Below, piece after piece: positions 2,635 to 24,854 of a stretch of DNA of 25,825 nucleotides. How positions within the stretch are numbered: the first letter of the stretch is position 1; the number at the start of each line of letters is the position of its first letter. This DNA is from a virus: IMG/VR virus record IMGVR_UViG_3300021957_000265, positions 1 through 25,825 of that record. One strand, given 5' to 3'. The notes below the pieces were generated by a model, which saw nothing but the letters and a program-made list of their open reading frames with translations, made no database searches and was not told where the DNA came from. Made by a program: the position numbers and the translations under genes.

Positions 2635-3887
2635 GTAGAGTATTCAAAGGTGCAACTAAAGCAGTAAAAAAAGTAACCAAAGGTGTTACCAAAGCCGCTA
2701 AAAAAATTGGTAAAGGTATAGCTAAAATTGGTAAATCTGTTTGGAATGGTGTTAAAAAACTAGGTGGTAAAGCTTTTGAAATGTATGGTAAAATAAGTGG
2801 TAAGCTTGGACCTATCGGTATGATAGGATTGTCCATGGCTATGCCATATTTAATGCCCGGTTTTTCAAGTGCAGCAGGTGGACTATGGACAAACTTTGGT
2901 GCTAAATCTGCAACATGGGCTAATGCGGCTAACAATCCTTTTTTAAAAGTTATTGGTAATGTTGGTGGTAAAATTTATAAAGGCACAAACTTTATTAAAG
3001 GTACTGCTCAAGGTATCTCACAAACTATAGGACAAACATTTAAAGGTTTTGCAAGTGAAGGTACTTTAGGTAGTAGAATCTCAACAGGATTTAGTAATTT
3101 ATATAAAGGTACAACAGAAGTTTTAACTGGTCAAGCAGGTAAAGGTACTATGATACCTACACAATTTAAAGATGCTTTAGGTACAACAGTAAATAAAAAT
3201 TTATTAAATGTAAAATCTGGATTAGAATCATCACAGTTTGCAGCATTTAATCCAAACACTATAACACAAACTGGCGGTATTACTCTTGGTAATATGAATG
3301 TAGCAAATAAATTTACATATGATGTTACTTCAGCAGCTATGAAAAATGCAGGAGTATTTCAAAACTTTGATGCTAATGCAAATAAATATTTAAATACATT
3401 AAGAAAAGTAGGTGTTGATGATAATACTGCATATGAATATTTAAGACAAAATGGTGTTGGTTCTGATGGTATTCTTGATTTTAGTTTATCAGCAGACTTT
3501 GCAGAAACAGGTGGAGTTGGTGCTTATGACTTTACTGGTAAAAATTTAAAAGATAGTTTTAAAGCTGCAGATTATAATTACAATATGAAATTTACAAAAC
3601 CTAAAGTAGAAGGTGATATATTTGCTCAACCAGATTCATTATTGAATCCTAAATCTGGAGTTTCTAAATCAAAAGATTTTGCTAGTGCTGCAGTAAATTC
3701 TGCTTTAACAAATCAAAATGAAGACATTCCGGGTTATGAATTAGCTTCTGCTATTAAGTCAACAGAACCTAATACAACAACAGCTAATTATGGTTCAACA
3801 ACAGGTGCATACACTAAAGAAGGTTTGTTATTAAATGAAGCACAAAGAAATTTCTTTTTAAATCAAAACTTAGATATTAAAGCATAA
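2622..3887 (+). CDS. Putative ejected/internal virion protein with Lys-rich amphipathic N-terminus
   Basis: This 421-aa protein is unfamiliar by family but striking in composition. Residues 1-61 carry 16 lysines spaced 3-4 residues apart among Ala, Val, Ile and Gly (for example VTKAAKKIGKGIAKIGKS), the pattern of a cationic membrane-active helix. A hydrophobic stretch follows at 63-85 (GPIGMIGLSMAMPYLMPG). The rest is Gly/Thr/Asn-rich with moderate Phe and Tyr content. The start is supported by AAGGAG 9 bp upstream, inside the end of the acyltransferase gene, which it overlaps by 13 bp. Position among virion genes and the membrane-seeking N-terminus suggest a protein ejected into the host envelope. 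It is also the obvious candidate target for the adjacent lysine acyltransferase; both points are inference. Confidence 0.65.
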   Translation: MGAISRVFKGATKAVKKVTKGVTKAAKKIGKGIAKIGKSVWNGVKKLGGKAFEMYGKISGKLGPIGMIGLSMAMPYLMPGFSSAAGGLWTNFGAKSATWANAANNPFLKVIGNVGGKIYKGTNFIKGTAQGISQTIGQTFKGFASEGTLGSRISTGFSNLYKGTTEVLTGQAGKGTMIPTQFKDALGTTVNKNLLNVKSGLESSQFAAFNPNTITQTGGITLGNMNVANKFTYDVTSAAMKNAGVFQNFDANANKYLNTLRKVGVDDNTAYEYLRQNGVGSDGILDFSLSADFAETGGVGAYDFTGKNLKDSFKAADYNYNMKFTKPKVEGDIFAQPDSLLNPKSGVSKSKDFASAAVNSALTNQNEDIPGYELASAIKSTEPNTTTANYGSTTGAYTKEGLLLNEAQRNFFLNQNLDIKA

Positions 3888-4081: not shown

Positions 4082-4323
4082 TGGCATTAGCTAAATCTCA
4101 AAAGAGTTTAAAAGCATGGGGGAAACAAAAATGGCGAACAAAATCTGGAAAAAAATCAAGTGTAACTGGCGAAAGATACTTGCCATCTGCAGCAATAAAG
4201 AACCTAAGTGCTGCGGAGTATGCGGCAACGACAGCAGCAAAAAGAAAAGATAAGAAAAAAGGTAAGCAACATAGTAAGCAACCTAAAAATATAGCAAACA
4301 AGACAAGGAAATATAGAGTATAA
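4081..4323 (+). CDS. Small basic conserved phage protein (80 aa)
   Basis: This very basic protein contains the blocks SLKAWGKQKWRTKSGKKSS (residues 8-26), TGERYLPSAAIKNLSAAEYA (29-48) and GKQHSKQPKNIANKTRKYR near the C-terminus. This arrangement is familiar from a DUF family in marine phages and large algal viruses (DUF5872-like, from memory). Trp/Lys-rich composition suggests nucleic-acid or anionic-surface binding, but no catalytic motif is visible. It is coupled to the gene before (TAATG overlap) and is separated from the next start by one base. Confidence 0.7.
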   Translation: MALAKSQKSLKAWGKQKWRTKSGKKSSVTGERYLPSAAIKNLSAAEYAATTAAKRKDKKKGKQHSKQPKNIANKTRKYRV

Positions 4324-4853: not shown

Positions 4854-6422
4854 ATGGCATTAAGTTTTGGAGATATAGCTTTATCAATAGGAGCAGGTGT
4901 TGCAGAAAAAGATATGCAGTACATGCAAGAAAAAAGAAATGCAGATTTTAATTTAGCAATGGAAGAGTTTAAAGATAACAAAGCACTTGTTACTAAACTT
5001 GCAGAGAATAGATACTCAAGAGATGTTAATAAATATGATGACGAAGTTAAAAAATATGATGCAGTTAAATCTGTTTATAGTGCAATTGAAAATGATAAAC
5101 TAAGTCCATTTGAAGCAGCATTTAGACTTGCTAGTGTTAATGACCCTAACTGGGGTAAATATGATAAAGCAGAAAGAATTGCAATTGCTAAGAAAAATGC
5201 AGAAGGATTTGATTACACTTATTATACTGATGAAGATAGACTTAAAGGTTTATTACCAGAAGGTAAAAACATTGGTGACAAAAAATCATTTAGTGTTCAA
5301 CATGATAAGTTAGAAATTACTGAACCTACTGCAGATAAATATTTCTTAGATAGTTCTTACTGGAAAGGCAAAGGTCCAAACCTAGATAACTTTAAAGGTG
5401 AAAGTATTCTTACTGGTCAAATTAAAAAACTTTTAGGTAAGACAGATTCAGATGGAAATGCTGAGAAAGTAGATATGTCTAATTATATTGCTGACTTAGA
5501 AAAATTAAAAACACAAGACATTAAATCTATTATTGGTAAAGAAACTTATACTTCAAATAATATAAGTGATTCTGTACTTGCTATTAGTGAGGGTAATTAT
5601 GCTTTTGGTGATGGAACAAGTAAATCTATTCCTTCAGCATTATCAAGTAAGTATGCTACATATAGTGGAGTAGCTACTAATGATGTAAGAAAAAGTATTA
5701 TTGCACCAATGAATGCAATGAAAATAAAAGACATTGATAAGTTTTTTACCTCTAAAGAAAATGGAGAAGTAGTAATATTACCGGGTGGTACTTCAGCTTA
5801 TATAGATGGTAGAGAATTATACAATGATGTTGTTAATAAATTATATTATAATATTGTTTATTCTAATGGTCAGTTTGCAGGTAGAGAAGAATTATTTACT
5901 GACTCTAATATTAATAAACAATACAATATGGAATTTCAAAACAGAAGTATTAAATTAGATTTAAAAGATGCAACAGGACTTTATATTATTCCAAGTAATG
6001 TTTTACCAGTAGGTGTAAGTTTAGCAGATTTAGGTATTAATAAAAACGATATTGTTAATTATGTTCAGAAAAATTTTCCTAAAAATAAATCATTAAATGA
6101 ATCTAAAGAAATGTTAAATGGTTTAGTATTTCAATACATTGCTAAAAATAAAAAAGAAGTAACTAATACTTCTAATGTAAATGAAAATGTTAATAATAAA
6201 AATGAAGGCAGTATTACTGTAACTGAAAAAATTATTACAGACATTATGGAATTAAATGAAGGAACAACTAGAGAAGATATCATTAAACAATTACAAGACG
6301 ATAAAAGATATAATGTACCAGAAAGTATTTTAAGTGGTGGTAATGAAACTTATGATGATAAGATGAAAAACCTTATTAAAAAAGATAAAAATTCTGGTGT
6401 AGAATATATTCCATTTGGTTAA
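4854..6422 (+). CDS. Hypothetical virion-region protein (522 aa)
   Basis: The protein opens with a short hydrophobic/Gly segment (LSFGDIALSIGAGVAEKDM) followed by a charged helical region of about 70 residues with coiled-coil character (residues 20-75). The remainder is mixed alpha/beta, rich in Lys, Asn, Asp and Tyr, with an Asn-rich spacer near residues 435-455. I see no catalytic motif. The start follows the previous stop by one base (TAATATG). Size, position before the 1823-aa protein and lack of enzyme motifs suggest an internal virion or tail component like the middle core proteins of T7-like phages. The assignment rests on position only. Confidence 0.6.
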   Translation: MALSFGDIALSIGAGVAEKDMQYMQEKRNADFNLAMEEFKDNKALVTKLAENRYSRDVNKYDDEVKKYDAVKSVYSAIENDKLSPFEAAFRLASVNDPNWGKYDKAERIAIAKKNAEGFDYTYYTDEDRLKGLLPEGKNIGDKKSFSVQHDKLEITEPTADKYFLDSSYWKGKGPNLDNFKGESILTGQIKKLLGKTDSDGNAEKVDMSNYIADLEKLKTQDIKSIIGKETYTSNNISDSVLAISEGNYAFGDGTSKSIPSALSSKYATYSGVATNDVRKSIIAPMNAMKIKDIDKFFTSKENGEVVILPGGTSAYIDGRELYNDVVNKLYYNIVYSNGQFAGREELFTDSNINKQYNMEFQNRSIKLDLKDATGLYIIPSNVLPVGVSLADLGINKNDIVNYVQKNFPKNKSLNESKEMLNGLVFQYIAKNKKEVTNTSNVNENVNNKNEGSITVTEKIITDIMELNEGTTREDIIKQLQDDKRYNVPESILSGGNETYDDKMKNLIKKDKNSGVEYIPFG

Positions 6423-6437
6423 AATAAAGGATAACTC

Positions 6438-9400
6438 ATGGCAACTCAAGGGCTAAAACTTCCTTCATATCTTGAAGAGCAGCTTTCTGCTGTCTCTCCT
6501 GTAAATAATACAGACAACTCCCCAAAAGAAAATACTCTTACTCTTCCTAAATATCTTTCGGAAGAACCTAGTACTGTGCGTAAGTTACAGTTTGGTGCTG
6601 CAGAAGAAACTTATTTATTAGGTGACATTTGGAGATTAACAGAATCTGCTATCAAAGCTATTGGTCCAGATACTTTTAAAGAAGCAAGAGAAGATGTTGA
6701 AGAAGATAGATTAAAAAAATTATATGCAGAGTTTCCAGAATTTGAAACAGGACAATATGATAATGATGCTTCAGTATGGGGTGGTCGTGCAGCAGTTATG
6801 GTTACTGACCCTTTATATTTATTAATGCCTTGGGCAAGAGCAGCACAAGCAGGTAAATTAATTGGTAAAGGTGGACTTGCACTTACTGGATTAGGTGCGG
6901 GTGTTGGTGCAACAGATGCAACTATTAGAGGTTTAGCTAGAGATGGAGAAGTAAGTGGAAAACAAGTAGGATACTCTGCATTAGCAGGTGGTGTTTTATC
7001 TCCGGCAGCTCTAGGAGTACAAAAATTAGGTGGTGTTGCACTAAATAAAATGTTTCCTAATTTATTTAAAAACAAAACAAAATTACAATCAGAAGAAATT
7101 ACTAATACATTAAGAAATAATTTTAAAAATAAATATAATTTAAATGATACTCAATTAGATAATGTTTATAAAATATCTTCTCTTCCAAAAATCAAACAAT
7201 TGTTTGATGATATAGTTAGAACAGAAAATAATTTTAAAGATTTTATTTTACCAAGAACAAAACTATTAGATAAATTAAATAAAGTTACTAATAATTTTTC
7301 TAAGAGTGTACCTTTAAGACCCGACCAATTAACTAGTATTTTAAAAGAAATACCGGGTGGTATGAAAATAAAATTTAAATCTATTGGTGATAAGACTTTA
7401 TCAACTGCAACTCAAGCAGAAAAGAAAACAATAATAAAAAATATTAAAACAGAAATAGATGATGTAATTAATGCGTCAGTTAAAGACCAAGCAAGAAGAA
7501 ATCATTTATATCAAGTTGAAGTTATTAAACAAATCCATAAAGCGGGAGGTTTAACTTCTGCTGTAGGTAGAGCATTATCTATTAACATTACAAGACCTAT
7601 TGTTGGTGCAGGTGCAGGTGCAGTAACTGGAACTATCTTTACAGATTCTGATGAAGGATTTAATAAAATGGTTATGATTGGTGCAGGTTTAGGAATGACA
7701 CATAGAGTTTTAATGCGTGGTGGTATTAAAGGTATAGCTAAACCAGAACAAATTTCATTTGCAAATATAATGAAAAAAGATTTTTGGACTAACTTAGATA
7801 GAAAAATTAGAATAGGAACATCACAAACATTACAAAGTAAATTAACTAATAGAGGTCCAGTCTTAGATGAGTTTTCTAATTTATTATTTTCAAGACCAAC
7901 TGATACAGTTAGATTAGATTGGTTAGGAAGAGTTGCAAAGAATCAAGATGAAGCTATTGGTATTATTGGTAGTGGTCGTGCAGTAGAAGAAGTTGCAGAA
8001 AAAAGAATAGCAGGATTTGTTGGTAGTATTTATGATGATGTCTTAGGTAACTCTGGAGGACAAGTACAAGCAGATGCATTAAATATTGTTAGAGGTTCAA
8101 AAGAAAAATTTTCTGATGAAGCTGTAGCTTTATCTGGAAGAATTAAAAATTGGTTAAATGATTTTAGAACTTACTACAAAGATGTAGGTTTTACAGACGC
8201 ACAACTTATTGATAATTATTTTCCTCGTAAATTTAATTATAAACAAATACTTCAATCAGATGCAAGTAAAGAACAATTTTTACAAACAGTAACTCAAGTA
8301 TTTAAAAACTTAACTAAAAATGCTTCAGCTAAAAATCCAGTTAAAGTTGGTATGTCTGGTACAGGTAAGCCAGTATTAAGTAAGAAAAAATTTAATGATA
8401 CAGAAGCTAGACAAGCCGCAGAAAAATATTTTAGAAGTATTACCGACAGTCACGAAAATCCTATTTTAGATTTTGCTAAATTAGAAAGAGGAGAAGTATT
8501 AAATTATAAAAATATTACTTTACCTTTAAGTGAACATATTAGATATGAAAGAATACTTCAAGGTTCTTTTGATGATGTAGAAAAATTATTACAACCTTAT
8601 TTAATTAATGATGTTGGTGCAGTACTAACTGACCTTATAAGAACAAGTGCAAAGTCAGTAGAATTTGCTAGAGTGTTTGGACCAAAAGGTGAATTGATTG
8701 GTAACTTTGCAAAAAGATTAGCTTCACAATATGAACAAGCAGGATTTACAAAGATAGGCGGATTCTATGGTAGTGAACATAGATTAGATGCTGAAGCAAT
8801 TAAAAATGCTGTTAATGCATATTTTGGAAGATATGGTAAAAGTGGCGGACCAAGAGCAAGAACTTTTGGTGCAGTTTTATCTACACTTGCAAACTTTAAT
8901 ATGATGGATAAAGTTACTTTAGCAAACCTTGGTGACCTTATTCAACCTTTTCAAAATAGTAGATACTTTGCATCTGCAATACAAGGTTTTGGTTTTTATC
9001 GTTCACCAAAATTTAGCGACCAATTAAATATAATACATACAAAAATTGCTCAAGCTAATTTAAAAGATGCATATATGAGTAGTACTGGTTCTAGTCCATT
9101 AACTTTAGAAAGTGGATTAAGTGGTTCTATTAGTTCTTTCTTAGGTAAATCTAATGAAAAATTTTTTAAATTAATTGGACTTGAAGGTATTACTAATGTT
9201 GCTAGAAGATATGCTTATAATGTAGGTGTAATAGATGCACATAAAACTATTAGAAAAGTAGTTACAACTTTAGATAAAAAAGGTATTAATAATATTAGCT
9301 TACAAAATGCAGATAAAAATTTATTAAAAGATATAAATCATTTAATTAAAACTGGAACAATAAGATTAAATAAACAAGGACAGATTGTTAACAATGATGA

Positions 9401-11909
9401 TATATTTTTTTTAGGAAGAATTAAAAATTTAGAAGATGCACTTGTTGATAAAAGAGCAGCAAATTTAATAGATAATATTGGATTAAAAGCTGCAAACAGA
9501 GATGCTTTAATACCTCAAGTTGGTAATAGATTACTATTTACTCAAGATAAAAATCCTTTTATAAGAATGATTGGACAGTTTTCTTCTTGGGCTATGGCAA
9601 AATCTGCACAAACAAATGCTATGCTTCAAAGAGTTGAAGATGGAGATTTAAGAACAGCAATAGGTTTAGTATCTTCTCTTGGAATCTTTGGTGCAGTACA
9701 AGATTTAAGAGAGTTTGCGAAGACTGGTAAATTTAATACTTATGAACAGATAGATGATGACCCTGCAAGATGGTTATCAGATGCATTTATGATGTCTGGT
9801 AATATGGGTTGGTTGCCAACAAGTTTTATTAATCAAATTATTGGTTATGGTAATGATGCTCCAATATTAATTGGTCCGGGTTATAATGTTCTTTACGATT
9901 GGAGTAGGGCTTTAGCACAAACTGGAGATGCATTTTTAAATAAAAAAAGTTATGATGAAGCAATAAGAAATTTTTATAAGAACGCACCTATTCCTACAGT
10001 AAGAGGAATACTTGATAGAGTTGGTGTACCTTTTATGACTTATAAAAAAGATTCTAATTTATTTAAAAATAAATCTGGTATTACATCTAATATGTTTAAT
10101 AAAGGTGGTGTTGCTGACAAAACAAGAATGTTATTTAATGAAGGTGATGTAGTAGATAAGTCATTTAGTGATTCATTTGCAGAAGCTAGAGGAAACAGAC
10201 AAGAATTATTTGAATGGGATGGCAATCAATATACTACAAGAAGAGCAGATGAAAGTGACCAACAGTATAAAAACTTTTTAGGAGTAAATAAAATTGAAGG
10301 ACCACAAATAGTATTAAAAGAAAAACCTTTAGCACCTGCTAATAATGAACAGTATAACGAAACATTAAAAGGTTATGATGAAATAGTACCTAAAAAGAAA
10401 CCTATACTTACAGTAGAGAAACCAAAAAAATCTAACTTTAGTTTATTCTCTTCTGCCGAAGCATCAATCCCAGATGATAAACAAGAGATAGAAGTTAATG
10501 CTAAAAAGTTTTTAGAAAAAGATATACAACCTAAAGATACAGTAGAAGTAAATAAATTTGGTTGGAATAAACTTGTTAATAAAATACCACCTAATGTTAG
10601 ATTAATGGTTAATGATGTATTTAAACAAAGTACTGATGGTAAGTTTGATAAAGTATTTACAGAAAAAAATTTAAATACAGAATATAAATCAATATTAAAA
10701 TCTATTGCTTTAGATGTTTTAAGTAAAGGTAAAACTAATATTGAATATAAAGATTATAAAAGTGTAGAAGGTGACAATGCTTATGCAGATGTTAGTTATA
10801 CTGCAAAAGGTGTACCAGATATAACTGATAAAAGATTTAATTTAAAAACATCTTTAGGTCAAGCTTCAATAAAAGTAGATAGAAATGGTAATCTTATTAT
10901 TGTAGATAAATTTAACTTTAATGATTCCGCAGATATAAATTCTTTTACAGACTTTTATCAAATGGTAAAAGAAATAGGTGGGTCAGCACTACAAGGTGAG
11001 GGTTATAATCTTGTACGAAAAGTTGGTAAGTGGTTTGGTTCACCAGAAGGTGAAGGACAAACTGTAAGAATTAATTTAGGTCCAGTTGATTTATCTAAAT
11101 TTAAAAATATTAAAATTGCAAAAGCAAATAAAGGTGGAGTAATAAGAAAACATTTTAGATATGGTGGTGACACTATGGGTGGACCAAATGATAAAAGTAA
11201 TGCGGGTCAAGGAAGCGGAAGTCAAGGACCTGCAGGTGGTCAATCATCTGGTGGAAATTATGGTGGTGGAAATAATAATAATAATAACAATAATAATAAT
11301 AACAATGGTAGTACAGCTAGAGAAAGATATATAGCAACTCAATATAACAAGACTAAAACTAAAACCAAAGGGGCGACAAATGGGGGAAGTGGTAGCGATA
11401 ATAATAATAACACTAGTAATAATACTAAAAATAGTAAGACAGATACAAAGGATAAAAGAAAATACACATCACAAGTAACAAGAGGACCTTATACAAAATA
11501 TAATATTGATAATCCAATAGATATTAATTCAATATTAAATCCTTCAGAAATAAGTGTAGCAGGAGAAGGTGGATATAAAATATCAAAAGATATTTATTCT
11601 CCTACTGGTGAAGTAGTTGGAAATGTATATAGTACAAAAGCATATTTACAAGGAGATGTTAATTTACAAGGAGATACTAATCAATCTTTTAATATAGATT
11701 TTAGTAATCAAAAAGGATATGATGCAACAGCTTCGTATGATTTAGATAACAGTATCTTAAGTGGTAATGTTTCTAAATATACTAACATAGGTAATACAGG
11801 ATATAAGGTTGGAGTAGGAATAGATTACAATGATGGTGATATAGGTCCATCTTTTCAGATAAAGAAAAGCTTTAAAAAGGGCGGATTACTTGACAAAAAA
11901 AGAGGTTGA
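6438..11909 (+). CDS. Giant internal virion/ejection-type protein (1823 aa)
   Basis: This is the largest gene in the window. Residues 125-200 and 380-435 hold Gly/Ala-rich hydrophobic stretches suited to membrane insertion. Residues 440-1210 resemble the long helical region of large internal virion proteins of marine podoviruses, including a conserved-looking NPFIRMIGQFSSWAMAKSA block (near 1038). Residues 1243-1275 contain FSDSFAEARGNRQELFEWDG plus a YTTR element, a short motif common in phage virion proteins. A Gly/Asn-rich linker with 12 consecutive Asn (1612-1623) precedes a beta-rich C-terminal domain of alternating polar and hydrophobic residues (about 1700-1810). KGG motifs occur at 1222, 1565 and 1814. 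SD-like AAAGGAT lies upstream of the ATG. By analogy with T7 gp16 it may form the ejectosome; no lysozyme motif was recognised. Confidence 0.7.
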   Translation: MATQGLKLPSYLEEQLSAVSPVNNTDNSPKENTLTLPKYLSEEPSTVRKLQFGAAEETYLLGDIWRLTESAIKAIGPDTFKEAREDVEEDRLKKLYAEFPEFETGQYDNDASVWGGRAAVMVTDPLYLLMPWARAAQAGKLIGKGGLALTGLGAGVGATDATIRGLARDGEVSGKQVGYSALAGGVLSPAALGVQKLGGVALNKMFPNLFKNKTKLQSEEITNTLRNNFKNKYNLNDTQLDNVYKISSLPKIKQLFDDIVRTENNFKDFILPRTKLLDKLNKVTNNFSKSVPLRPDQLTSILKEIPGGMKIKFKSIGDKTLSTATQAEKKTIIKNIKTEIDDVINASVKDQARRNHLYQVEVIKQIHKAGGLTSAVGRALSINITRPIVGAGAGAVTGTIFTDSDEGFNKMVMIGAGLGMTHRVLMRGGIKGIAKPEQISFANIMKKDFWTNLDRKIRIGTSQTLQSKLTNRGPVLDEFSNLLFSRPTDTVRLDWLGRVAKNQDEAIGIIGSGRAVEEVAEKRIAGFVGSIYDDVLGNSGGQVQADALNIVRGSKEKFSDEAVALSGRIKNWLNDFRTYYKDVGFTDAQLIDNYFPRKFNYKQILQSDASKEQFLQTVTQVFKNLTKNASAKNPVKVGMSGTGKPVLSKKKFNDTEARQAAEKYFRSITDSHENPILDFAKLERGEVLNYKNITLPLSEHIRYERILQGSFDDVEKLLQPYLINDVGAVLTDLIRTSAKSVEFARVFGPKGELIGNFAKRLASQYEQAGFTKIGGFYGSEHRLDAEAIKNAVNAYFGRYGKSGGPRARTFGAVLSTLANFNMMDKVTLANLGDLIQPFQNSRYFASAIQGFGFYRSPKFSDQLNIIHTKIAQANLKDAYMSSTGSSPLTLESGLSGSISSFLGKSNEKFFKLIGLEGITNVARRYAYNVGVIDAHKTIRKVVTTLDKKGINNISLQNADKNLLKDINHLIKTGTIRLNKQGQIVNNDDIFFLGRIKNLEDALVDKRAANLIDNIGLKAANRDALIPQVGNRLLFTQDKNPFIRMIGQFSSWAMAKSAQTNAMLQRVEDGDLRTAIGLVSSLGIFGAVQDLREFAKTGKFNTYEQIDDDPARWLSDAFMMSGNMGWLPTSFINQIIGYGNDAPILIGPGYNVLYDWSRALAQTGDAFLNKKSYDEAIRNFYKNAPIPTVRGILDRVGVPFMTYKKDSNLFKNKSGITSNMFNKGGVADKTRMLFNEGDVVDKSFSDSFAEARGNRQELFEWDGNQYTTRRADESDQQYKNFLGVNKIEGPQIVLKEKPLAPANNEQYNETLKGYDEIVPKKKPILTVEKPKKSNFSLFSSAEASIPDDKQEIEVNAKKFLEKDIQPKDTVEVNKFGWNKLVNKIPPNVRLMVNDVFKQSTDGKFDKVFTEKNLNTEYKSILKSIALDVLSKGKTNIEYKDYKSVEGDNAYADVSYTAKGVPDITDKRFNLKTSLGQASIKVDRNGNLIIVDKFNFNDSADINSFTDFYQMVKEIGGSALQGEGYNLVRKVGKWFGSPEGEGQTVRINLGPVDLSKFKNIKIAKANKGGVIRKHFRYGGDTMGGPNDKSNAGQGSGSQGPAGGQSSGGNYGGGNNNNNNNNNNNNGSTARERYIATQYNKTKTKTKGATNGGSGSDNNNNTSNNTKNSKTDTKDKRKYTSQVTRGPYTKYNIDNPIDINSILNPSEISVAGEGGYKISKDIYSPTGEVVGNVYSTKAYLQGDVNLQGDTNQSFNIDFSNQKGYDATASYDLDNSILSGNVSKYTNIGNTGYKVGVGIDYNDGDIGPSFQIKKSFKKGGLLDKKRG
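11271..11306 (+). repeat. AAT/AAC trinucleotide run encoding 12 Asn
   Basis: The stretch reads as five AAT, one AAC, four AAT, one AAC and one AAT codon in the giant virion gene, inside a Gly/Asn/Ser linker. A second, shorter Asn-rich patch follows near 11398-11430. Simple repeats of this kind can change length by slippage without breaking the frame. Confidence 0.85.
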
Positions 11910-12003: not shown

Positions 12004-12423
12004 ATGATAAACCTACCTACTAGGGTCTTTGACCCATTTAAAAACATGACAGTTGGATTTGATGATATATTCGACCAACTATCTACATTGTCTAAATATG
12101 AGACACCAAACTATCCACCATATAATATAAAGAAAGTTGGAAAAGATAAGTACCAACTTGATATGGCATTAGCAGGATTTAAGAAAGAGGATGTGATTGT
12201 TGAAGTCAATGACAATACATTAACTGTTTCTGGTAAAGCTGTTGATAAAGAAGATGATAGTTTTGTTCATAAAGGAATAGCTAGAAGAGCATTCAAAAGA
12301 CAATGGACATTAGCTGAACATCTTGAAGTTAAAGATGCACAACTAAAGGATGGAGTTCTGACTGTAGATATGAAGTTAAATCTACCAGAAGAAAAGAAAC
12401 CTAGAACAATTAAAATAAAATAA
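12004..12423 (+). CDS. hsp20: Small heat-shock protein, Hsp20/IbpA type
   Basis: The 139-aa product is a full-length alpha-crystallin-domain chaperone: an ATP-independent holdase that keeps unfolding proteins soluble. The N-terminal arm contains FDPFKNMTVGFDDIFDQLST, as in IbpA. The core begins at PPYNIKK (about 38) and includes DMALAGFKKEDVIVEV, LTVSGKA and GIARRAFKRQWTLAEHLEV, followed by DGVLTVDM. The C-terminal IxI-like anchor is TIKIK. It has its own consensus promoter and a strong SD (AAAGGAG, 5 nt before ATG), and a terminator follows. Hsp20 genes are known in marine cyanophages; here it may protect virion protein folding or counter host stress during late infection. Confidence 0.95.
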   Translation: MINLPTRVFDPFKNMTVGFDDIFDQLSTLSKYETPNYPPYNIKKVGKDKYQLDMALAGFKKEDVIVEVNDNTLTVSGKAVDKEDDSFVHKGIARRAFKRQWTLAEHLEVKDAQLKDGVLTVDMKLNLPEEKKPRTIKIK

Positions 12424-17770: not shown

Positions 17771-18054
17771 CTTTTGATACCGCTTGGAATATTTTCAGTA
17801 CCCTTTATTATAGCATCAAGTTGCTCAAATGTCAAGTCCGGATTTCGTTTTAACTTCTTAATTATCCACTTATATGACCACGCAGATAGTCGCACTTGAT
17901 TTTGAAATACATAGTGTGTTTGTTTAGGTGCTAAATCTAACACATTCTTTTCGTTAATCAGTTTCTTTTCGTGTTCTGGTAGTAAAGAATGAAGCCATTG
18001 AACCATAATGGTCTTAGCTTTTCTTCTAATTTTTTTTATTTGTTTTGTATTCAT
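17764..18054 (-). CDS. Small basic hypothetical protein (96 aa)
   Basis: The protein is Lys-rich at the N-terminus (MNTKQIKKIRRKAKTIMVQW) and later contains HYVFQNQVRLSAWSYKWIIKK and a helical C-terminal part (DLTFEQLDAIIKG). Charge and a Trp-rich helical middle would suit DNA or protein binding. SD AAAGG precedes the start. It overlaps the SpeD-like gene upstream (29 bp) and the endonuclease downstream (7 bp). The sequence looks like a conserved marine phage protein but I cannot name a function. Confidence 0.65.
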   Translation of the reverse strand: MNTKQIKKIRRKAKTIMVQWLHSLLPEHEKKLINEKNVLDLAPKQTHYVFQNQVRLSAWSYKWIIKKLKRNPDLTFEQLDAIIKGTENIPSGIKRW

Positions 18055-18424
18055 TTTGTACCTTTATTAATTTAAAATTAGTTTCTCTATCAAAGTATCT
18101 ATAACTCATTCGTACTGGTTTAAACTTATAAAGATAAGAAAATACAATCTCTTCATCTAAATCTTTACAAGAATAAACATCAAGTTGAACAAGTGAGGGA
18201 TTGTCTTCATCCCAAACATGCATTGCTATATGAGAAGTTTCTATAATAGTAACTGCTGTTAATCCTCTGTTGCCTATGTTGTCACAATACTTTAGATATG
18301 GACCACCAAGTATCTTCATGTCTATATCTTTTATTAATTTTTTTAACCAAAGTTTAGTTGACTTTAAATCTTTGGGTGGGTCTAGTACTTCTGCTCTTAC
18401 AAGTAAGTGCTTGTGTTTCAACAT
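18026..18424 (-). CDS. speD: SpeD-like S-adenosylmethionine decarboxylase (pyruvoyl enzyme)
   Basis: The classical family decarboxylates SAM to feed spermidine synthesis, after self-cleaving at a Ser to form a pyruvoyl group. Compared with the short bacterial/archaeal form, the required residues are present: S64 (IIETSHIAMH) as the cleavage Ser, H69 as the processing His and C86 (DVYSCKD) as the catalytic Cys, in 132 aa. Some SpeD relatives, including phage ones, are reported to act on ornithine or arginine instead, so the substrate is open. No strong SD is seen; the start lies 4 bp from the exonuclease stop. It sits among nucleases rather than polyamine genes, and no spermidine synthase is visible. 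Confidence 0.88.
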   Translation of the reverse strand: MLKHKHLLVRAEVLDPPKDLKSTKLWLKKLIKDIDMKILGGPYLKYCDNIGNRGLTAVTIIETSHIAMHVWDEDNPSLVQLDVYSCKDLDEEIVFSYLYKFKPVRMSYRYFDRETNFKLIKVQNEYKTNKKN

Positions 18425-18427
18425 AAA

Positions 18428-19318
18428 TTATTTTTCTATTATCTTCACCTCTTCTACTTTTGGTTCTTTAGCAATGTGTGTGAAGTACACATTACCACTT
18501 GCATATTTAAATGCTCTCAATCCTTTACCTTCGTTTGTATCTTTATGACACTCAACTTTGTGTGAACAGAATACACAACCCGCAGGAAGTTTCATGTTAC
18601 CTGCTTTCTCATGTGGTACTGGTTCATAACATTTAGGTGGAACTTCTTTTAAATCTAACTTCTCTTTAACATCTTTAATTAAAGTTTTAATATTTGGTTT
18701 AGTTAAATCATCTGGTCTATACAAAGCAATCTGTCCAGTTGATTTATTGATTGCAAGAAAACCACCTTGTTTTGTTTTCTCATTCTCTTCATATCCTGTT
18801 AGCTGTGCGATATAACCAAATGGGTCATCCTCTGCAAGTGTTCCATTCTCAAACTTTTTAAATGAATATGCTGACGCAGTTTTAACATCAACAACTTCAC
18901 CATCAATCTTACTATCCATGTGACCAACAATACCATCAACACTAACTTTCTTTTGTTGGTCAGTTACTTTGTGTCCTGCTAAATCAGTTAAAAATAAAAC
19001 AAGATGTTCGAGTAAGTGTCCATACAAAAACTTTAATTGTAAAGAAGGATTTGATTTTTCTTTCTTGATTGGTTTATGTTTGTCATACCAAAGTTGTCTC
19101 AATGGTCTTCCAAGTATAGACATTCGTAAAGAACTTCTATCTTGTTTAACTGGATTAATCCAGTCAACTATTGCGTCTTTGATATTACTTAAAAATTTAT
19201 TTAGTTGTTCATCTGAGACTTCTAGTTTCTTACCATCCCCAAGATTAGTAAGTAGATTATTAATATCGGGAACTAAAGTATCTAATGTCTTAGTGTGTTT
19301 CTTTCCAGTTGTTTCCAA
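18428..19318 (-). CDS. PD-(D/E)XK (RecB/Cas4-like) exonuclease
   Basis: A 296-aa nuclease likely used for DNA degradation or recombination, filling the role of T7 gp6. Motifs in order: GHLLEH with E104, GHMDSKIDG with D135, VVDVKTAS with D144 and K146, and the QxxxY motif AQLTGY (Q172, Y176). A Cys group follows at C230, C248, C251 and C257 (GCVFCSHKVEC), like the C-terminal Cys cluster of Fe-S RecB/Cas4 nucleases, though I see no N-terminal Cys partner. The start codon is TTG at 19318, backed by GGGGAG 7 nt upstream inside the end of polA, which it overlaps by 29 bp. No ATG occurs in frame until residue 66. Confidence 0.88.
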   Translation of the reverse strand: METTGKKHTKTLDTLVPDINNLLTNLGDGKKLEVSDEQLNKFLSNIKDAIVDWINPVKQDRSSLRMSILGRPLRQLWYDKHKPIKKEKSNPSLQLKFLYGHLLEHLVLFLTDLAGHKVTDQQKKVSVDGIVGHMDSKIDGEVVDVKTASAYSFKKFENGTLAEDDPFGYIAQLTGYEENEKTKQGGFLAINKSTGQIALYRPDDLTKPNIKTLIKDVKEKLDLKEVPPKCYEPVPHEKAGNMKLPAGCVFCSHKVECHKDTNEGKGLRAFKYASGNVYFTHIAKEPKVEEVKIIEK

Positions 19319-20996
19319 TTTTATACTCCCCTGTTAATGGACATCTTATATTTAATTCCTTACCCGCATTAGTAATTGATTGAACTGCAAGTTGTCCTAG
19401 TTGTTCTGCTTGATTTTCTTTTACTTGATATTGAAACTCATCATGGACATTAGCTACAGGCAAAGCATCAATATTATTTTTCTCAATCTCTCTGTCTAAT
19501 AATACCAATGCTTTCTTCATTGCTATTGCCCCTGCTCCTTGGATGAGGGTGTTGACTGCTGAGTGCTTTTGTCTGATGATGAGGTTTCTTTGGTCGATTC
19601 CTTTGAGATATCCTTTTCCACAAGCGAGGTCCACTCTGTCTCGCAACCTTTTAAGACTTGGTAAAGACTTAAGAAATCTTTCTTTAATCTTTCCTCCATA
19701 CTCTTGAGACCTTCCGCAGATACTTCCGAGTTTTTTGTTACCTGCCCCATAAATGAACGCATAGATAAATGTTTTTGCAGTATCTCTGCTTTCCAACCCT
19801 GCAAGAGTTTGATTTGTAGTGTGTATATCTCCATTAATGACTTCATTAATATACTCCTTATCGTTCATGTAGTGGGATAATATTCTTAATTCAAGTCCAC
19901 TTGCGTCTATTCCCACTAGTTTATATCCGCTTGGGACTGTCCATAATTCCCTGCATTCTTTTCCATAAGGAGAGTACACAGCAGGGATTTGAGCCATGTT
20001 GGGCGACTGGTGACTCATTCTTGAAGTTATTGCACCATTGGTAATAACTCTTCCATGTACTCTCCTATCTTCTGCTACCGCTTCAATCCAAGAATTAATC
20101 ATTGCAATTCTCTTTTGCAGTAGGAGAAACTCGTTTATCAATTCCGCTTCGGGAATGTTTTTAATCTCTGATAAAACTTTTTCATCAACAATTACATGAC
20201 CTTTGTCTGTTTTCTTTTTAGGTTTCCAACCTAGTTTCATAAGTCGTTCACCTATTTGTTGTCGTGAACCTAAGTTAAACTCTTGATACTTAACCTTTGT
20301 AAATGGTTCACCTTTAACATAACCTCTTGCTTTATTGTTTGACTTAGGTATGAAAGTCTCTTCAATTTTAATTGGTGGAAAAGTTTCTCTAACTTTACTT
20401 TGTACTTCATCAATCTTATTCTGAAGTCTAGCAAGTAGGATGTGTGCTTTCTCACTATCAAAAAGAAATCCTGTCTGTACTTGTTTCTCAATAATCCTTG
20501 CAACATCATGTTCCAAGTCTATAGATTTTTGAGAAAAATTTTTACCTTGTCTTTGTAATAAGTCATAAACTTTTTTAAGAAGTTTAACATCACGAATACA
20601 ATACTCTAACATTTCTAAAGAGAACTCAGAAAAATCTTTGAACTCTAACTTATTGTACGCAAACTTATTTCCAAATGCTCTTAAAGAATGTCCACCTTCT
20701 CTTACTGGTTTAAACAATCTTGATAGTATAAGTGTATCAGTAACCTTTCCTATCTTAAATAAATCTACACCAAGAACTTTTTTAATAACTGGAGCATCAA
20801 ATCCTATGATGTTGTGTCCAATAAACTCTTGATAATTCTTCGCATCATTCTGAAATTTATGTAAATCATTCGGAGTATAACATACAAGATTGCCCTTATC
20901 ACAAATAGTGACCAAGCAAAAAATCTTGTTAGGTAATTCAGAACCATTAACAATTTCGGTTGTCTCGATATCCAAGAACAGTTTTCTCTCACCCAC
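19290..20996 (-). CDS. polA: Family A DNA polymerase with 3'-5' exonuclease
   Basis: The replicative polymerase. The exonuclease domain (1-150) has D9/E11 (LDIET), D67 (HNIIGFD) and D136 (YCIRDVKLL). The polymerase domain (about 230-568) has motif A LVGIDASGLELR with D364, motif B R404-D-T-A-K408 through Y412 to YG (416-417), and motif C NVHDEFQ (H519, D520, E521). The residue equivalent to E. coli F762 is Tyr412, as in T7. At 568 aa it is shorter than T7 gp5 (704 aa), and I see no room for a T7-type thioredoxin-binding insertion. The start is GTG at 20996, with AAGGGA 7 nt upstream. It directly follows the primase-helicase gene. Confidence 0.95.
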   Translation of the reverse strand: MGERKLFLDIETTEIVNGSELPNKIFCLVTICDKGNLVCYTPNDLHKFQNDAKNYQEFIGHNIIGFDAPVIKKVLGVDLFKIGKVTDTLILSRLFKPVREGGHSLRAFGNKFAYNKLEFKDFSEFSLEMLEYCIRDVKLLKKVYDLLQRQGKNFSQKSIDLEHDVARIIEKQVQTGFLFDSEKAHILLARLQNKIDEVQSKVRETFPPIKIEETFIPKSNNKARGYVKGEPFTKVKYQEFNLGSRQQIGERLMKLGWKPKKKTDKGHVIVDEKVLSEIKNIPEAELINEFLLLQKRIAMINSWIEAVAEDRRVHGRVITNGAITSRMSHQSPNMAQIPAVYSPYGKECRELWTVPSGYKLVGIDASGLELRILSHYMNDKEYINEVINGDIHTTNQTLAGLESRDTAKTFIYAFIYGAGNKKLGSICGRSQEYGGKIKERFLKSLPSLKRLRDRVDLACGKGYLKGIDQRNLIIRQKHSAVNTLIQGAGAIAMKKALVLLDREIEKNNIDALPVANVHDEFQYQVKENQAEQLGQLAVQSITNAGKELNIRCPLTGEYKIGNNWKETH

Positions 20997-21013: not shown

Positions 21014-22669
21014 TTAAAATTTATCTTCTTCTGTCTCATCACCTTGAGGTTTATCTACTTCGTTAAGTCTGCCAGTATCTTTGTCCCAATATAAGTAACA
21101 TGCAGGACCAGTCATACCCACAAATCTATTCTTCAATACTCTCAATGTGGTTGTGTTTCTTTGTGCAATATCCTCACTCTGACTATCTCTCTCTAATCCA
21201 AGAACCATATCAGATAGCTGAGCAATAGAACCCGAACCTCTTAGTTGTGCAAGTGAAGTGACTGCTCCTTCTTCATGTCCCTTACCATCTGGTCTTCGTA
21301 AGTGAGACACTACAATCAAAGCAATATCTGTTTCTTGTACTAGTGTTCTTAGTTTAGTCATTACTTCATCAAGTGCTTTTCTCTCATCACCAAACTCTTG
21401 AGAAGATACTATCATACTTATATGGTCAAGAACTATGAACTTACAATCCAAAGCTTTTGCCATGTATCTAACTCTAGCAATAATATTATCTACTGAATTA
21501 GAACCGAAGTGATTGTAGAAATAAAATCTACCAGTACCTACTGTCTTGTTGAAGTAGTTTGTTTTATCTTCATCCGATAAATTAATATCGGGTCTTCGTA
21601 AAGGTAAGTTAGCTTCTGTTCCCATGATATCTAATGCAGTTATCTTAGGACTTTCCTCTAACATTATCATTCCAATGTTACTCTCTGTACTTTTGAATAT
21701 ATGATATACTAACTCTTTAATGACTGATGTTTTTCCAAGTCCAGTCCCTGCGGTAATAGTAACCAACTCACCACTACGAATACCATAAGTTAACTCATCT
21801 AGTCCTTTCCATCCATAATCTATTCTGGATTTTACTATAGGTTTAAGTACCTCAGAAAGTAATTGACTACCTTCTACGATACCATCTGGTGCATGTATAG
21901 GTGCATTCCACCAAGCTTTTACATACTCCTCATACTTCTTAGAACGCAGTAAATCGTTTGCGTCTTTGTACACTTCGGGAAGTTTAACTATCTTAACTTT
22001 CCCGGGTTGAAATAAGTCTGCAACTTTAACACTTGCTTCTCTTCCAACCTCATCATTATCAAAATTGATAACAATATTGTCGAATTTATCCAACCAAGAA
22101 TAACTTTTCTTGATATCTTTTAGTGCTGAAGCAACTCCATTCTTAATAGAAACTACTGGATATTTTGAACCTAACATCTGATAGACTGACATTGCGTCAA
22201 CCTCACCTTCTGTTATGGTTACATACTTCCCACCATTAAATAATTGCTGACCGAACAATCCAGAATTGGATGTCGAACCTAGAATTGAAAATTGTTTATC
22301 TTTAACATACCTTGTCTTTGTCGCAATCATCTGACCTGTCTCGTCATAGTATGGATAGATATGTTTTGCGATAAGGTTATTGCCATTGTACATAACCTTA
22401 ACTCCATACTTCTTACAAGTCTCTGAGTTAATTCCTCTATCTGATATTGAAGATAAAGTACCTTGATGATAACTTAAATCTGTTATCTTTTCTGCTGTTT
22501 GCATGTCGCCCCTTTGTTGTTGTTGATTTATCCCTGTCTCATTTGGGAAGAAAGTGGTGCAAGAAAAACAATAGCTACTGCCATCATCATTAACACTTCT
22601 CGCATCACTACTTCCACACTTCGAACAAGGGACATGATATTCTACAAACTTAGATTTGTCTTCATTCAT
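21014..22669 (-). CDS. T7 gp4-like DNA primase-helicase
   Basis: A bifunctional replisome protein of 551 aa, close to T7 gp4 (566 aa). The N-terminal zinc site has C15, C18, C34 and C37. The TOPRIM primase core shows TITEGEVDAMS with E154 and INFDNDEVG with D204/D206. The RecA-like helicase has Walker A TAGTGLGKTS (K313), Walker B FIVLDHIS (D415), an IALIVVSHLRRP strand (about 449-460) and a SLAQLRGSGSIAQLSD block (472-487). The C-terminus is acidic (DETEEDKF), as in T7 gp4, where the tail contacts the polymerase. SD AAGGGG precedes the ATG. It lies between ssb and polA. Confidence 0.95.
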   Translation of the reverse strand: MNEDKSKFVEYHVPCSKCGSSDARSVNDDGSSYCFSCTTFFPNETGINQQQQRGDMQTAEKITDLSYHQGTLSSISDRGINSETCKKYGVKVMYNGNNLIAKHIYPYYDETGQMIATKTRYVKDKQFSILGSTSNSGLFGQQLFNGGKYVTITEGEVDAMSVYQMLGSKYPVVSIKNGVASALKDIKKSYSWLDKFDNIVINFDNDEVGREASVKVADLFQPGKVKIVKLPEVYKDANDLLRSKKYEEYVKAWWNAPIHAPDGIVEGSQLLSEVLKPIVKSRIDYGWKGLDELTYGIRSGELVTITAGTGLGKTSVIKELVYHIFKSTESNIGMIMLEESPKITALDIMGTEANLPLRRPDINLSDEDKTNYFNKTVGTGRFYFYNHFGSNSVDNIIARVRYMAKALDCKFIVLDHISMIVSSQEFGDERKALDEVMTKLRTLVQETDIALIVVSHLRRPDGKGHEEGAVTSLAQLRGSGSIAQLSDMVLGLERDSQSEDIAQRNTTTLRVLKNRFVGMTGPACYLYWDKDTGRLNEVDKPQGDETEEDKF

Positions 22670-22690: not shown

Positions 22691-23122
22691 TTAAAACTCC
22701 TCGTTGTTACCTTCCGCAACAAACCCACCATCCGAGACATCAAAGTCTTCGCCATATGGTACGAGGTCAAGTACTTGTACTGCTTGTAAATCCAAGCTTG
22801 TACCAGACTTACCTGCAAAAGTCCAATCAAAAGCTTTGTATAAAACTTTTACCTTTGAACCATTACCTACTAATACATCAATAGGATTTTTTGCAGAGTC
22901 CACTAGTCTCGGCATAGGATTTTTAGTCCCATCCGCCCTAGCAACTTTTCTTTTGAACTTGATAATAGAACCTCTATCATCTTGTTTAACTGAAACACCC
23001 TTACCCTTAAACTCCTCGGCAGTTTTATCGTCAACTGCTAAGTCGATTTGATATACTGGGTCGAATGTTGTATTAGGTCTAGTCACACTAGCCCAATATG
23101 CTTTTCCTTCAACTGTTGGCAT
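22691..23122 (-). CDS. T7 gp2.5-like single-stranded DNA-binding protein
   Basis: The product coats ssDNA and coordinates the replisome. Its OB-like core has alternating strands (KAYWASVTRP, YQIDLAVDD, SIIKFKRKVARADG, SKVKVLYKAFDWTF, LDLQAVQVLDLVPY), and the acidic tail ends in an aromatic residue (DFDVSDGGFVAEGNNEEF), the hallmark of gp2.5-type SSBs. The 143-aa length is shorter than T7 gp2.5 (232 aa) but usual for marine podovirus versions, from memory. It is first in the replication operon, with a consensus AGGAGG 5 nt before the ATG and a strong promoter upstream, consistent with high expression. Confidence 0.88.
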   Translation of the reverse strand: MPTVEGKAYWASVTRPNTTFDPVYQIDLAVDDKTAEEFKGKGVSVKQDDRGSIIKFKRKVARADGTKNPMPRLVDSAKNPIDVLVGNGSKVKVLYKAFDWTFAGKSGTSLDLQAVQVLDLVPYGEDFDVSDGGFVAEGNNEEF

Positions 23123-23153
23123 ATATACCTCCTATTTTTTTATTGAAGTTTGT

Positions 23154-23182
23154 ATTATATCACAAAACAAAAACAAAGTCAA
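23154..23182 (-). promoter_or_regulatory. Sigma70 extended -10 promoter for the replication operon
   Basis: On the minus strand, TTGACT (23182-23177) and TATAAT (23159-23154) are 17 bp apart, and TGA precedes the -10 box (TGnTATAAT). It lies about 32 bp upstream of ssb, with AGGAGG at 23128-23133. Confidence 0.85.
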
Positions 23183-23353
23183 GTGATAATTTATTTTAAA
23201 CATAGTCTTAACTCTATTAAGATATTTATATATATTATTATTAATATTATAATAATAACTATTAATAATCTTTAACATAGTTAAATAATTTATTTAAATT
23301 AAACATATTATATCATACAATTGTGTCATAAGCAAGGCAAAAATAAATTTATT
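23183..23353 (-). other. AT-rich intergenic region with palindromes; candidate replication origin
   Basis: This non-coding stretch is almost entirely A/T over 23220-23300. It contains four inverted repeats: TCTTAA/TTAAGA around a 5-nt loop (23206-23222), TTATTATTA/TAATAATAA around a 6-nt loop (23235-23258), TTAAATA/TATTTAA around ATT (23281-23297), and the perfect palindrome AAAATAAATTTATTTT (23340-23355), which overlaps the lysozyme stop. AACATAGT occurs twice (near 23199 and 23274). Such a region beside strong promoters and next to ssb resembles the T7 primary origin, but no origin activity can be shown from sequence. Confidence 0.4.
23307..23335 (-). promoter_or_regulatory. Second extended -10 promoter upstream of the replication operon
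   Basis: On the minus strand, TTGCTT (23335-23330) and TATAAT (23312-23307) are 17 bp apart, again with TGA before the -10 box. Transcripts would cross the AT-rich palindromic region before reaching ssb, giving a leader of about 180 nt. Confidence 0.65.
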
Positions 23354-23827
23354 TTATACCTGCGACATTTTATTTGCTAGATATTCGGCACGACTGGGTG
23401 TTTGTTTAGCCCACCTGCTGTCCAACATCTCAAGTTTCGCCCCCTCAAAATTTAACTTGGCAATGTTCTCAAACATTTTATTGAACTTACTTACACCCGC
23501 CTTGCCTAATTGGAAACACATGTTACAAAATATAGATATAACTTTCATCTTTCTGTTTATATCTAGTAGTTCAAAGTCTGTGTTTGTCAATCTTTCTTTG
23601 ACTAAAGAATTTGCATTAGCCCATGCTAAATCAAAGTCTTCATCAAAAACTTCTTGTAACTTTTCTTTACTGTACGCAACTCCTTTTTCAAAGAGGTCGG
23701 TGTCTTTTACTAAATGACCCCAACCTATTGTGTCAAATCCTAGAGAATCACTATATATAGTATCTCTAAAACCTTCGTGTTCTTGTATTTCTTTTTTTAC
23801 CTGTTCTATTTCTTTAAACATTATCAT
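23354..23827 (-). CDS. T4-type lysozyme (GH24 endolysin)
   Basis: This muramidase cleaves peptidoglycan at lysis. The catalytic triad keeps the exact T4 spacing: E18 (EHEGFR), D27 (YSDSLG) and T33 (DTIGWGH), corresponding to T4 E11, D20 and T26. GWGHLV follows, and the C-terminal helical lobe (residues 75-157) ends SRWAKQTPSRAEYLANKM, as in the family. Length 157 aa is normal (T4: 164). There is no signal peptide, so it needs a holin for access to the wall. SD AAAGGAG lies 4 nt before the first ATG and 10 nt before the ATG of Met3. It overlaps the nuclease-like gene upstream by 14 bp. Confidence 0.92.
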   Translation of the reverse strand: MIMFKEIEQVKKEIQEHEGFRDTIYSDSLGFDTIGWGHLVKDTDLFEKGVAYSKEKLQEVFDEDFDLAWANANSLVKERLTNTDFELLDINRKMKVISIFCNMCFQLGKAGVSKFNKMFENIAKLNFEGAKLEMLDSRWAKQTPSRAEYLANKMSQV

Positions 23828-24197: not shown

Positions 24198-24732
24198 TTA
24201 GATAACCCCTTTCAGTTATGTATAAAATTGTTCTTCTTAGTTTGATTGCATAATTTTTATCTGTTGAATAGTTATATAACATTTCAGTTAATAAAAATAT
24301 ATCGTACTCATCAACTACCCACATATCATACATCTTTTCTCTAAACTCTGCATAACTTCTATGACTTAACAAAGTTTCTATGTAGTGAACAACTGATAAA
24401 CATTTAGTAGGATAAACTTTTAATCCAAAGTTTGCTTCTAAATTTTTTAATGGTTTGATATGCGGTTTATTTAAATCATACTCACGCACACCATATAAAT
24501 TGTTTCCTTGTATTGCAAATCTTGACCTACCCCAATTACTTTCTAAAGAAGCTTGACCTACAATTATTTCTATAGGTATTCTATCTTTAGAAGGTAAGTC
24601 TGCATTATAAAACAATGCACAATTTTTTACTCCTTCTATAAACTCTTCGTTATTATTATATTCAAAGTCATCTTGAAAATTAAAAGATGACTGACATAAA
24701 ATTAATAAACCTGCACAAATATTTTTTATCAT
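24184..24732 (-). CDS. Bax/FlgJ-like glucosaminidase (GH73) with N-terminal export signal
   Basis: Residues 45-135 match the Bax-type N-acetylglucosaminidase domain: RIPIEIIVGQASLESNWGRS with catalytic Glu64, then RFAIQGNNLYG, FGLKVYPTKCLSVVHYIETL and SHRSYAEFREKM. Residues 1-20 (MIKNICAGLLILCQSSFNFQ) form a short basic-hydrophobic signal or membrane-anchor segment. Cys13 is not preceded by a good lipobox. The enzyme should cleave the glycan strand and may reach the periplasm through Sec, unlike the cytoplasmic lysozyme two genes downstream. Its start overlaps the end of the 25-aa membrane peptide gene (TAATATG). Confidence 0.85.
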   Translation of the reverse strand: MIKNICAGLLILCQSSFNFQDDFEYNNNEEFIEGVKNCALFYNADLPSKDRIPIEIIVGQASLESNWGRSRFAIQGNNLYGVREYDLNKPHIKPLKNLEANFGLKVYPTKCLSVVHYIETLLSHRSYAEFREKMYDMWVVDEYDIFLLTEMLYNYSTDKNYAIKLRRTILYITERGYLNGRK

Positions 24733-24733
24733 A

Positions 24734-24811
24734 TTAAATCAATCCAAATGTTGATGTGATAATAAAACTCCACATAATTATTAACAAAAAATAAACTATA
24801 AGATTTAACAT
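24734..24811 (-). CDS. 25-aa membrane peptide upstream of the glucosaminidase gene
   Basis: A short frame starts MLNLIVYFLLIIMWSFIITS and ends TFGLI with TAA at 24734-24736, just before the next ATG (TAATATG). Nearly every residue is hydrophobic, making a single membrane helix. An AGG lies 8 nt upstream of its ATG and a promoter lies directly upstream, so it would be the first gene of the cell-wall hydrolase transcript. Possible roles are a small holin-like or regulator peptide; it could also be only a leader. Confidence 0.5.
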   Translation of the reverse strand: MLNLIVYFLLIIMWSFIITSTFGLI

Positions 24812-24825
24812 ACGAATAACCTATT

Positions 24826-24854
24826 ATTATACCATATCTTTTTATGAATTGCAA
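24826..24854 (-). promoter_or_regulatory. Extended -10 promoter for the wall-hydrolase genes
   Basis: On the minus strand, TTGCAA (24854-24849) and TATAAT (24831-24826) are 17 bp apart, with TGG preceding the -10 box (TGnTATAAT). It lies about 15 bp upstream of the 25-aa peptide and so also upstream of the glucosaminidase, nuclease-like and lysozyme genes. Confidence 0.7.

Follow-up and report, generated by a model that had tools for sequence, protein, structure and literature searches.

How is DNA replication started in T7-like phages that have no RNA polymerase of their own? To our knowledge this is not settled. The question is raised by the gap between the lysozyme and ssb genes of a 25,825-base pelagiphage fragment (the window, meaning the whole stretch of DNA that was analysed). 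The initial annotation of this gap proposed a candidate origin made of AT-only palindromes between tandem promoters. The minus-strand genes of the window are arranged in the order lysozyme, intergenic gap, ssb, primase-helicase, family A polymerase and Cas4-type exonuclease, and in its replication half the window matches Pelagibacter phage HTVC115P at 95% identity (complete genome, 54.8 kb; host HTCC7211). As stated in the annotation, the site adjoins ssb, and the product of this gene is gp2.5-like (phrog_112). A single-subunit RNA polymerase (PF00940) is absent from HTVC115P, whereas the positive control, pelagiphage HTVC201P, matches at 4e-105. The HTVC115P promoters are therefore presumably read by the host polymerase.

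The window has other features of interest away from this gap. A perfect TTGACA-17-TATAAT promoter with TG is located on the minus strand at 17807-17835, within the gene upstream of a T7-type endonuclease I gene. Another minus-strand promoter, at 24826, precedes a possible hydrophobic ORF of 25 residues (ATGTTAAATCTT.., seen by eye; 24732-24826) just upstream of a glucosaminidase-like endolysin. Phage-borne Hsp20 and S-adenosylmethionine decarboxylase genes are found at 12004-12423 and 18026-18424.

Table 1. Features of the lysozyme-ssb gap and adjacent genes, in window coordinates
Feature	Position	Strand	Basis
Family A DNA polymerase	19290..20996	-	PF00476, E 2.9e-54
T7-type primase-helicase	21014..22669	-	phrog_239, E 1.5e-187; PF21268 and PF03796 above cut-off
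ssb, gp2.5-like ssDNA-binding protein	22691..23122	-	phrog_112, E 3.3e-12; HTVC115P gp23
AGGAGG ribosome-binding site of ssb	23128..23133	-	sequence
P2, predicted ssb promoter (TTGACT-17-TATAAT with TG)	23154..23182	-	sequence
Putative cassette site between A/T block and P2, empty here	23183..23208	-	P1-P2 spacing and module patterns in relatives
A/T block, predicted initially transcribed region of P1	23209..23306	-	lowest-GC, least stable DNA of the window; near-fixed distance from P1
Conserved 44-nt core TTAAAG..TTATTATTATAAT..AATAATAAT	23232..23275	-	ungapped comparison with L067; multi-locus alignment
Small dyad TTAACTATGTTAA, overlapping the core start; possible operator or none	23272..23284	-	sequence
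P1, predicted sigma-70 extended -10 promoter (TTGCTT-17-TATAAT with TG)	23307..23335	-	sequence
16-bp palindrome AAAATAAATTTATTTT	23340..23355		over lysozyme stop
Phage lysozyme, gene upstream of P1	23354..23827	-	PF00959, E 7.2e-08

Two promoters, an A/T block and incidental palindromes

The two promoters with 17-bp spacers described in the annotation are present, both on the minus strand and both with extended -10 sites. P1 consists of a -35 hexamer TTGCTT (23330-23335) and the -10 site TGATATAAT (23307-23315), with a predicted start near 23300. P2 has TTGACT at 23177-23182 and TGATATAAT at 23154-23162. The assignment of P1 as a host sigma70 RNA polymerase promoter is predicted from these matches and from conservation among loci. 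The 100 nt after the P1 -10 contain 11 G/C, compared to 22, 35 and 30 for other strong HTVC115P promoters.

The roughly 120 bp between the promoters had been described as nearly pure A/T, and 109 of the 121 bases (23183-23303) are indeed A or T. Nowhere else in the window do 120 nt have so few G/C (11); in 100 dinucleotide-preserving shuffles of the window the corresponding value averaged 22.5 and never fell below 17. The weakest 100-bp duplex, at 23214-23313, begins at the P1 -10 and extends downstream. Its stability is 88.8 kcal/mol against a mean of 119.1 kcal/mol (sd 6.6) for the window.

The palindromes, which the annotation took to be the working part of the origin, did not stand up to the same scrutiny. 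Inverted repeats are present in the A/T stretch, but in arm length, fold energy and symmetry they are mostly what chance produces in A/T-only sequence. The longest perfect arm, 9 bp, was reached in 18% of shuffles of the 231-nt region and 28% of shuffles of its core. The fold energy has a z of -0.12, and the symmetry test gave p 0.36. One count points the other way, with 9 overlapping repeats that have arms of at least 7 against 2.2 +- 1.8 in shuffles, but these shuffles distributed the A/T across all of the 231 nt. RNAalifold retained 5 pairs across the block in 26 loci, none with a two-sided change, and therefore a conserved RNA hairpin is not supported. The perfect 16-bp palindrome on the lysozyme stop is there as described, overlapping two bases of the stop codon; it is found in 25 of 72 upstream regions (from the best 80 of 109) and is not generally conserved. 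These tests of arm length, number of repeats, symmetry, fold energy and covariation led to the rejection of the palindromes as the main signal; they are a by-product of A/T-only sequence. Iterons, searched for as three or more direct repeats for an initiator, are absent from 23100-23420, which contains just two two-copy families.

Conservation of P1 and the block

Relatives were chosen from IMG/VR by similarity of their ssb (the best 80 of 109 loci), and HTVC115P, HTVC103P and HTVC104P were added. A set of 72 loci, not independent of each other, includes the window and leaves out HTVC103P, HTVC104P and ten IMG/VR loci with 56-59% ssb identity. Among these 72 loci (best 80 of 109), 64 have a -10 box with an A/T block behind it, comprising 51 distinct sequences. 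The contig of one, L035, is cut within the block, and when it is dropped 63 of 72 loci have P1 plus block. The nine loci without the full element are L035, seven contigs that start too close to ssb and L059, the only genuine absence; the upstream region of L059 differs. One of the seven, L044, retains part of the block. P1 plus block is conserved in relatives down to 70% ssb amino-acid identity. In the ten loci with 56-59% identity, one of which (L074) has just 15 nt upstream, and in HTVC103P and HTVC104P, no extended -10 site of the P1/P2 kind was found within 600 nt before ssb.

The promoters themselves are well preserved. TG.TATAAT lies within 70 nt of ssb, at the P2 position, in 72/72 loci, and is retained at P1 in 62 of the 63 P1-bearing loci (both from the best 80 of 109), with L036 having GAGTATAAT instead. 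The -35-like hexamer of P1 varies (TTGCTT, TTGATT, TTGACT) and in more distant loci it is TTGACT or TTGACA.

Conservation extends into the block. The 44-nt core of the window and that of L067, whose ssb is 71% identical, share 38 of 44 positions without gaps; 5000 letter shuffles gave a mean of 20.1 and a maximum of 32 identities. Over the whole block, 19 columns are invariant among 26 aligned loci. In the loci listed the core lies 31-45 nt from P1, a near-fixed offset, whereas the P1-P2 spacing ranges from 147 to 828 nt (63 loci, best 80 of 109). The conserved unit is therefore P1 plus block. The annotated layout, a block between two promoters, does not hold, since only P1 is tied to the block. 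The unit is also specific to its locus; when IMG/VR was scanned with an exact pattern, 21 stretches matched, each of them next to the lysozyme, gp21 or ssb gene of a member of this phage group.

In 60 of the 62 loci of at least 4 kb (best 80 of 109), no other 120 nt are lower in GC than the block. The exceptions are L073 and HTVC115P. In HTVC115P a stretch near the left end, 242-361, is both AT-richer and weaker than the block, with 9 G/C in 120. Nothing comparable was found near the gp03 homologues of three relatives, where the best stretches have 16-21 G/C per 120 and synteny is uncertain. The HTVC115P left end (195-480) consists of a terminator-like hairpin and then the AT stretch, and could be a rival origin or an early-promoter region.

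P1 plus block is a real conserved element. The initial annotation was right about the element and wrong about the reason; the palindromes are incidental, and P1 and the block together form the unit.

Two observations on the surrounding regions were made by eye. Upstream of P1 in L058 (about 175-240 of the locus) there is a possible 20-residue lipoprotein-like mini ORF ending LSTCG, and L062 has a similar one. In HTVC103P and HTVC104P the ssb-primase gap (10690-10910 and 5440-5670, respectively) has a promoter-like site together with a strong hairpin that ends in a run of Ts, an arrangement that resembles a small RNA gene.

A candidate R-loop origin and its alternatives

An A+T-rich element of the unwinding type lies directly downstream of P1, as in T4-type R-loop origins, and an AT-rich cluster adjoins promoters, as in T7-type primary origins. 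The T7 primary origin cluster has adjacent promoters. Of the two systems T4 is the better analogue, not T7 as the annotation had it, since the T4 R-loop origins use the host RNA polymerase and T7 uses a phage enzyme. The T4 origins oriF and oriG consist of a promoter and an A+T-rich downstream element and are served by host RNAP, according to the available part of PMC3016281. This is also the layout of P1 plus block, and by analogy a host-RNAP-primed origin of the R-loop type is the leading reading, unproven and tentatively held.

According to this mechanism P1 and the block would act as one DNA unit, a host RNA polymerase promoter followed by a DNA-unwinding element. The transcript starting at P1 would remain hybridised in the A/T block as an R-loop, and its 3' end would prime leading-strand synthesis by the family A polymerase. 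The displaced strand would then admit ssb and the primase-helicase from the adjacent operon, as in oriF and oriG. P2 would merely be the ssb promoter. The gap between the block and P2 would tolerate insertions, and in relatives could serve as a cassette site for structured RNA modules.

Transcription-primed initiation by host RNA polymerase, as the annotation proposed it, survives in part. P1 leading into conserved, least stable DNA beside ssb, primase and polymerase genes, with no RNA polymerase in the isolate, fits the proposal; the palindromes and the two-promoter layout do not. P1 plus block combines its layout with conservation at near-fixed spacing, extremely low stability, locus specificity, no RNA covariation or conserved reading frame, and the absence of a phage RNA polymerase from the nearest isolate.

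The differences from known systems are also clear. P1 has no known dependence on MotA, the window encodes a family A polymerase, and the element is known here from sequence alone. Further, the block is conserved in sequence, whereas the T4 unwinding elements need no specific sequence and are interchangeable, as described in the available part of PMC3016281. The T7 primary origin has an AT-rich cluster of about 61 bp (T7 3761-3821; PMC12839067, seen as an excerpt), and the window shares with T7 a T7-type primase-helicase, a family A polymerase and a gp2.5-like ssb. T7, however, has its own RNA polymerase and HTVC115P has none, the window itself being a fragment. The ColE1 origin, in the portion of PMC5043065 consulted, resembles the proposed mechanism in its host-RNAP transcript (RNA II), R-loop and use of Pol I, a family A polymerase, and its primer RNA is structured, as are the modules of relatives described below. 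The window, however, has no structured RNA, and in relatives the modules vary or are absent, so they cannot be an obligatory primer fold.

Several results weigh against an origin. The AT-richer and weaker site at HTVC115P 242-361 is one. Another is that P1 plus block is missing from L059, HTVC103P, HTVC104P and the loci with 56-59% ssb identity. The conservation of the block in sequence is unneeded for an unwinding element and suggests that a protein-binding or leader role would suit it too. GC skew, proposed as a check in the annotation, makes no turn at the site; its extremes are at 17.3 kb, where genes converge, and at 54.4 kb. Third-position skew to the left and right of the site shows no origin pattern either, though skew tests are confounded by gene direction and are weak for a lytic phage. 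Thus of the two signs the annotation looked for at this locus, conservation was found in the block sequence and replication bias was not seen as a skew turn. A search of the non-subscription literature turned up nothing on transcripts, R-loops or replication in this phage group, and no earlier description of an origin in the group.

Close behind in probability, and likewise tentative, is that the block serves P1 as a cis-regulatory or leader element and plays no part in initiation. It could be a DNA target, consisting of the TTAACTATGTTAA dyad and the A/T tract, to which a regulator of the phage or an AT-binding protein of the host attaches. It could also be a linear leader in the RNA, rich in AU and bound by an RNA-binding protein. 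The block would then time the ssb-primase-polymerase operon, and P2 would be a second start. Conservation of the block sequence, not of composition alone, points this way, as do the near-fixed distance from P1 and the structured RNAs of relatives, which lie on the same strand behind P1. The dyad, however, is gone in the L058, L060 and L067-L073 type loci. The block RNA folds no better than shuffles (mean z -0.55, 31 blocks) and shows no covariation, but a linear RNA signal would show neither. It is improbable that these are ordinary tandem promoters in an AT-rich gap and that the block is a mere insertion-tolerant spacer or landing site for RNA modules. Chance-level AT-only palindromes are consistent with a spacer, and so are the 39 of 63 loci without a recognised module against 24 with at least one (best 80 of 109). 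But a neutral spacer is not expected to hold 38 of 44 positions ungapped, or to remain the lowest-GC stretch in 60 of 62 loci (best 80 of 109).

Two further readings have little probability. It is quite improbable that the P1 transcript is translated into a tiny membrane peptide encoded in the block. A conserved ATG does open hydrophobic peptides of 18-19 residues in 13 of 63 loci, for example of the L009, L038, L039 and L057 types, but in 39 of 63, including the window and HTVC115P, 1-nt indels lead to an N/Y-rich frame and in 11 of 63 there is no ATG (best 80 of 109). In addition no ribosome-binding site precedes the ATG, unlike that of ssb. Since 1-nt indels separate the N/Y-rich and hydrophobic frames, coding is unlikely overall, and a coding leader was rejected because the reading frames are not conserved. 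It is harder still to credit an AU hairpin in the P1 RNA as the working part. The block-less L059 has AATAATAAGG-GAAA-CCTTATTATT after its promoter (by eye) and many blocks have central 9-bp arms; against this stand the RNAalifold pairs, which show no two-sided change. The R-loop origin is retained as the leading, tentative reading.

Putative RNA modules at the same site in relatives

Between the block and P2, relatives have additional DNA on the P1 strand, higher in GC and non-coding in appearance. Four modules, M1-M4, were recognised by pattern, which gives a lower bound, in at least 24 of 63 loci (best 80 of 109), either singly or in arrays up to M1+M3+M2+M3. Among the 39 without modules, 35 have P1 and P2 within 170 nt, the empty form to which the window belongs, and four (L017, L023, L067, L068) are longer. 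The modules of HTVC115P are M4+M3, at about 7732-7835. From P1 to P2 the coding strand of L057 and of HTVC115P showed no intrinsic terminator, and the inserts of 13 loci contained no tRNA or tmRNA.

The modules look like structured RNAs, and covariation was shown for M1, where it is strong, and for M2. M1 is about 190 nt long and its pattern occurs in 119 IMG/VR stretches. An alignment of 46 representatives of 83 distinct copies gave 28 pairs, 17 of them with two-sided changes. With the structure predicted from this same alignment, pairing is seen in 95.9% of cells and drops to 32-47% on sliding the partners; the covariation score reaches 0.519, compared with 0.192 for shuffles. M2 is represented by 11 sequences and 17 pairs, including a four-pair pseudoknot; all are 100% paired and three pairs have two-sided changes. 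This structure was, however, drawn by eye on these very sequences, which biases the slid control in its favour. For M3, each of the inner eight stem pairs can form in 26-30 of 30 loose candidates, five of those pairs being fixed by the search pattern. The M3 hairpin, GTAGTGCC..AACTAC, hosts many different loop inserts. Domains are also swapped between modules. One 31-nt stretch is found in the M2 loop of L065 and the M3 loop of L136, and another in M3 of L050 and M2 of L132 and L134. Such nested swapping of M2 and M3 was observed in L065, L136, L050, L132, L134, L147 and L059.

M1 often lies close behind promoters of early or replication genes. Outside this phage group, the CTGAAC motif of many M1 loci follows the end of a sigma70-like promoter by about 39-54 nt, so M1 would start near the 5' end of the transcript; promoter scores vary, and other M1 loci have no good promoter. 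No A/T block was seen in the M1 contexts listed outside this phage group. Of 19 clusters of downstream genes, 9 were scanned in PHROGs and 5 had matches, including Cas4-type and RecE-like exonucleases. M1 loci occur in marine viral contigs such as L041, L064, L112, L170 and L191. In genomes M1 was found on a single contig, 9.8 kb, of a planctomycete MAG (4107-4293, 175.9 bits), which may be a viral contig.

The compensatory base changes in M1 and M2 are of the kind seen in curated RNA families (Rfam 15, and surveys such as PMC2864571, in the part available). Unlike these families, the modules have no Rfam 15 match up to E 1 in the window and ten loci, which include carriers of M1, M2, M3 and M4; the scan took in L036, with the same M4+M3 as HTVC115P, in place of HTVC115P itself. 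Distant blastn with two M1 queries and an M1-M3 array against 50,697 phage records gave no match, and the HTVC115P modules matched HTVC115P alone in these records. A search of the non-subscription literature found no earlier description of the modules or swapped domains. Their 5' position suggests that the modules may be leader elements for stability or antitermination, with decoys as an alternative.

The ssb leader of these pelagiphages is probably a cassette site. Behind one promoter and block, marine phages would assemble structured RNAs of an undescribed kind into arrays, with nested domains that can be exchanged. M1-M4 would then be a new combinatorial class of phage RNA, acting as 5'-leader elements or as decoys. 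The RNA cassette site is a more novel discovery than P1 plus block.

For the cultured phage HTVC115P on HTCC7211, the analysis names one 100-bp candidate origin. The modules occur in many marine viral contigs but in one cultured phage among those searched, have no Rfam entry and exchange domains. If they are made during infection, they would add a new layer to what is known of phage RNAs in SAR11, the most abundant of marine hosts.
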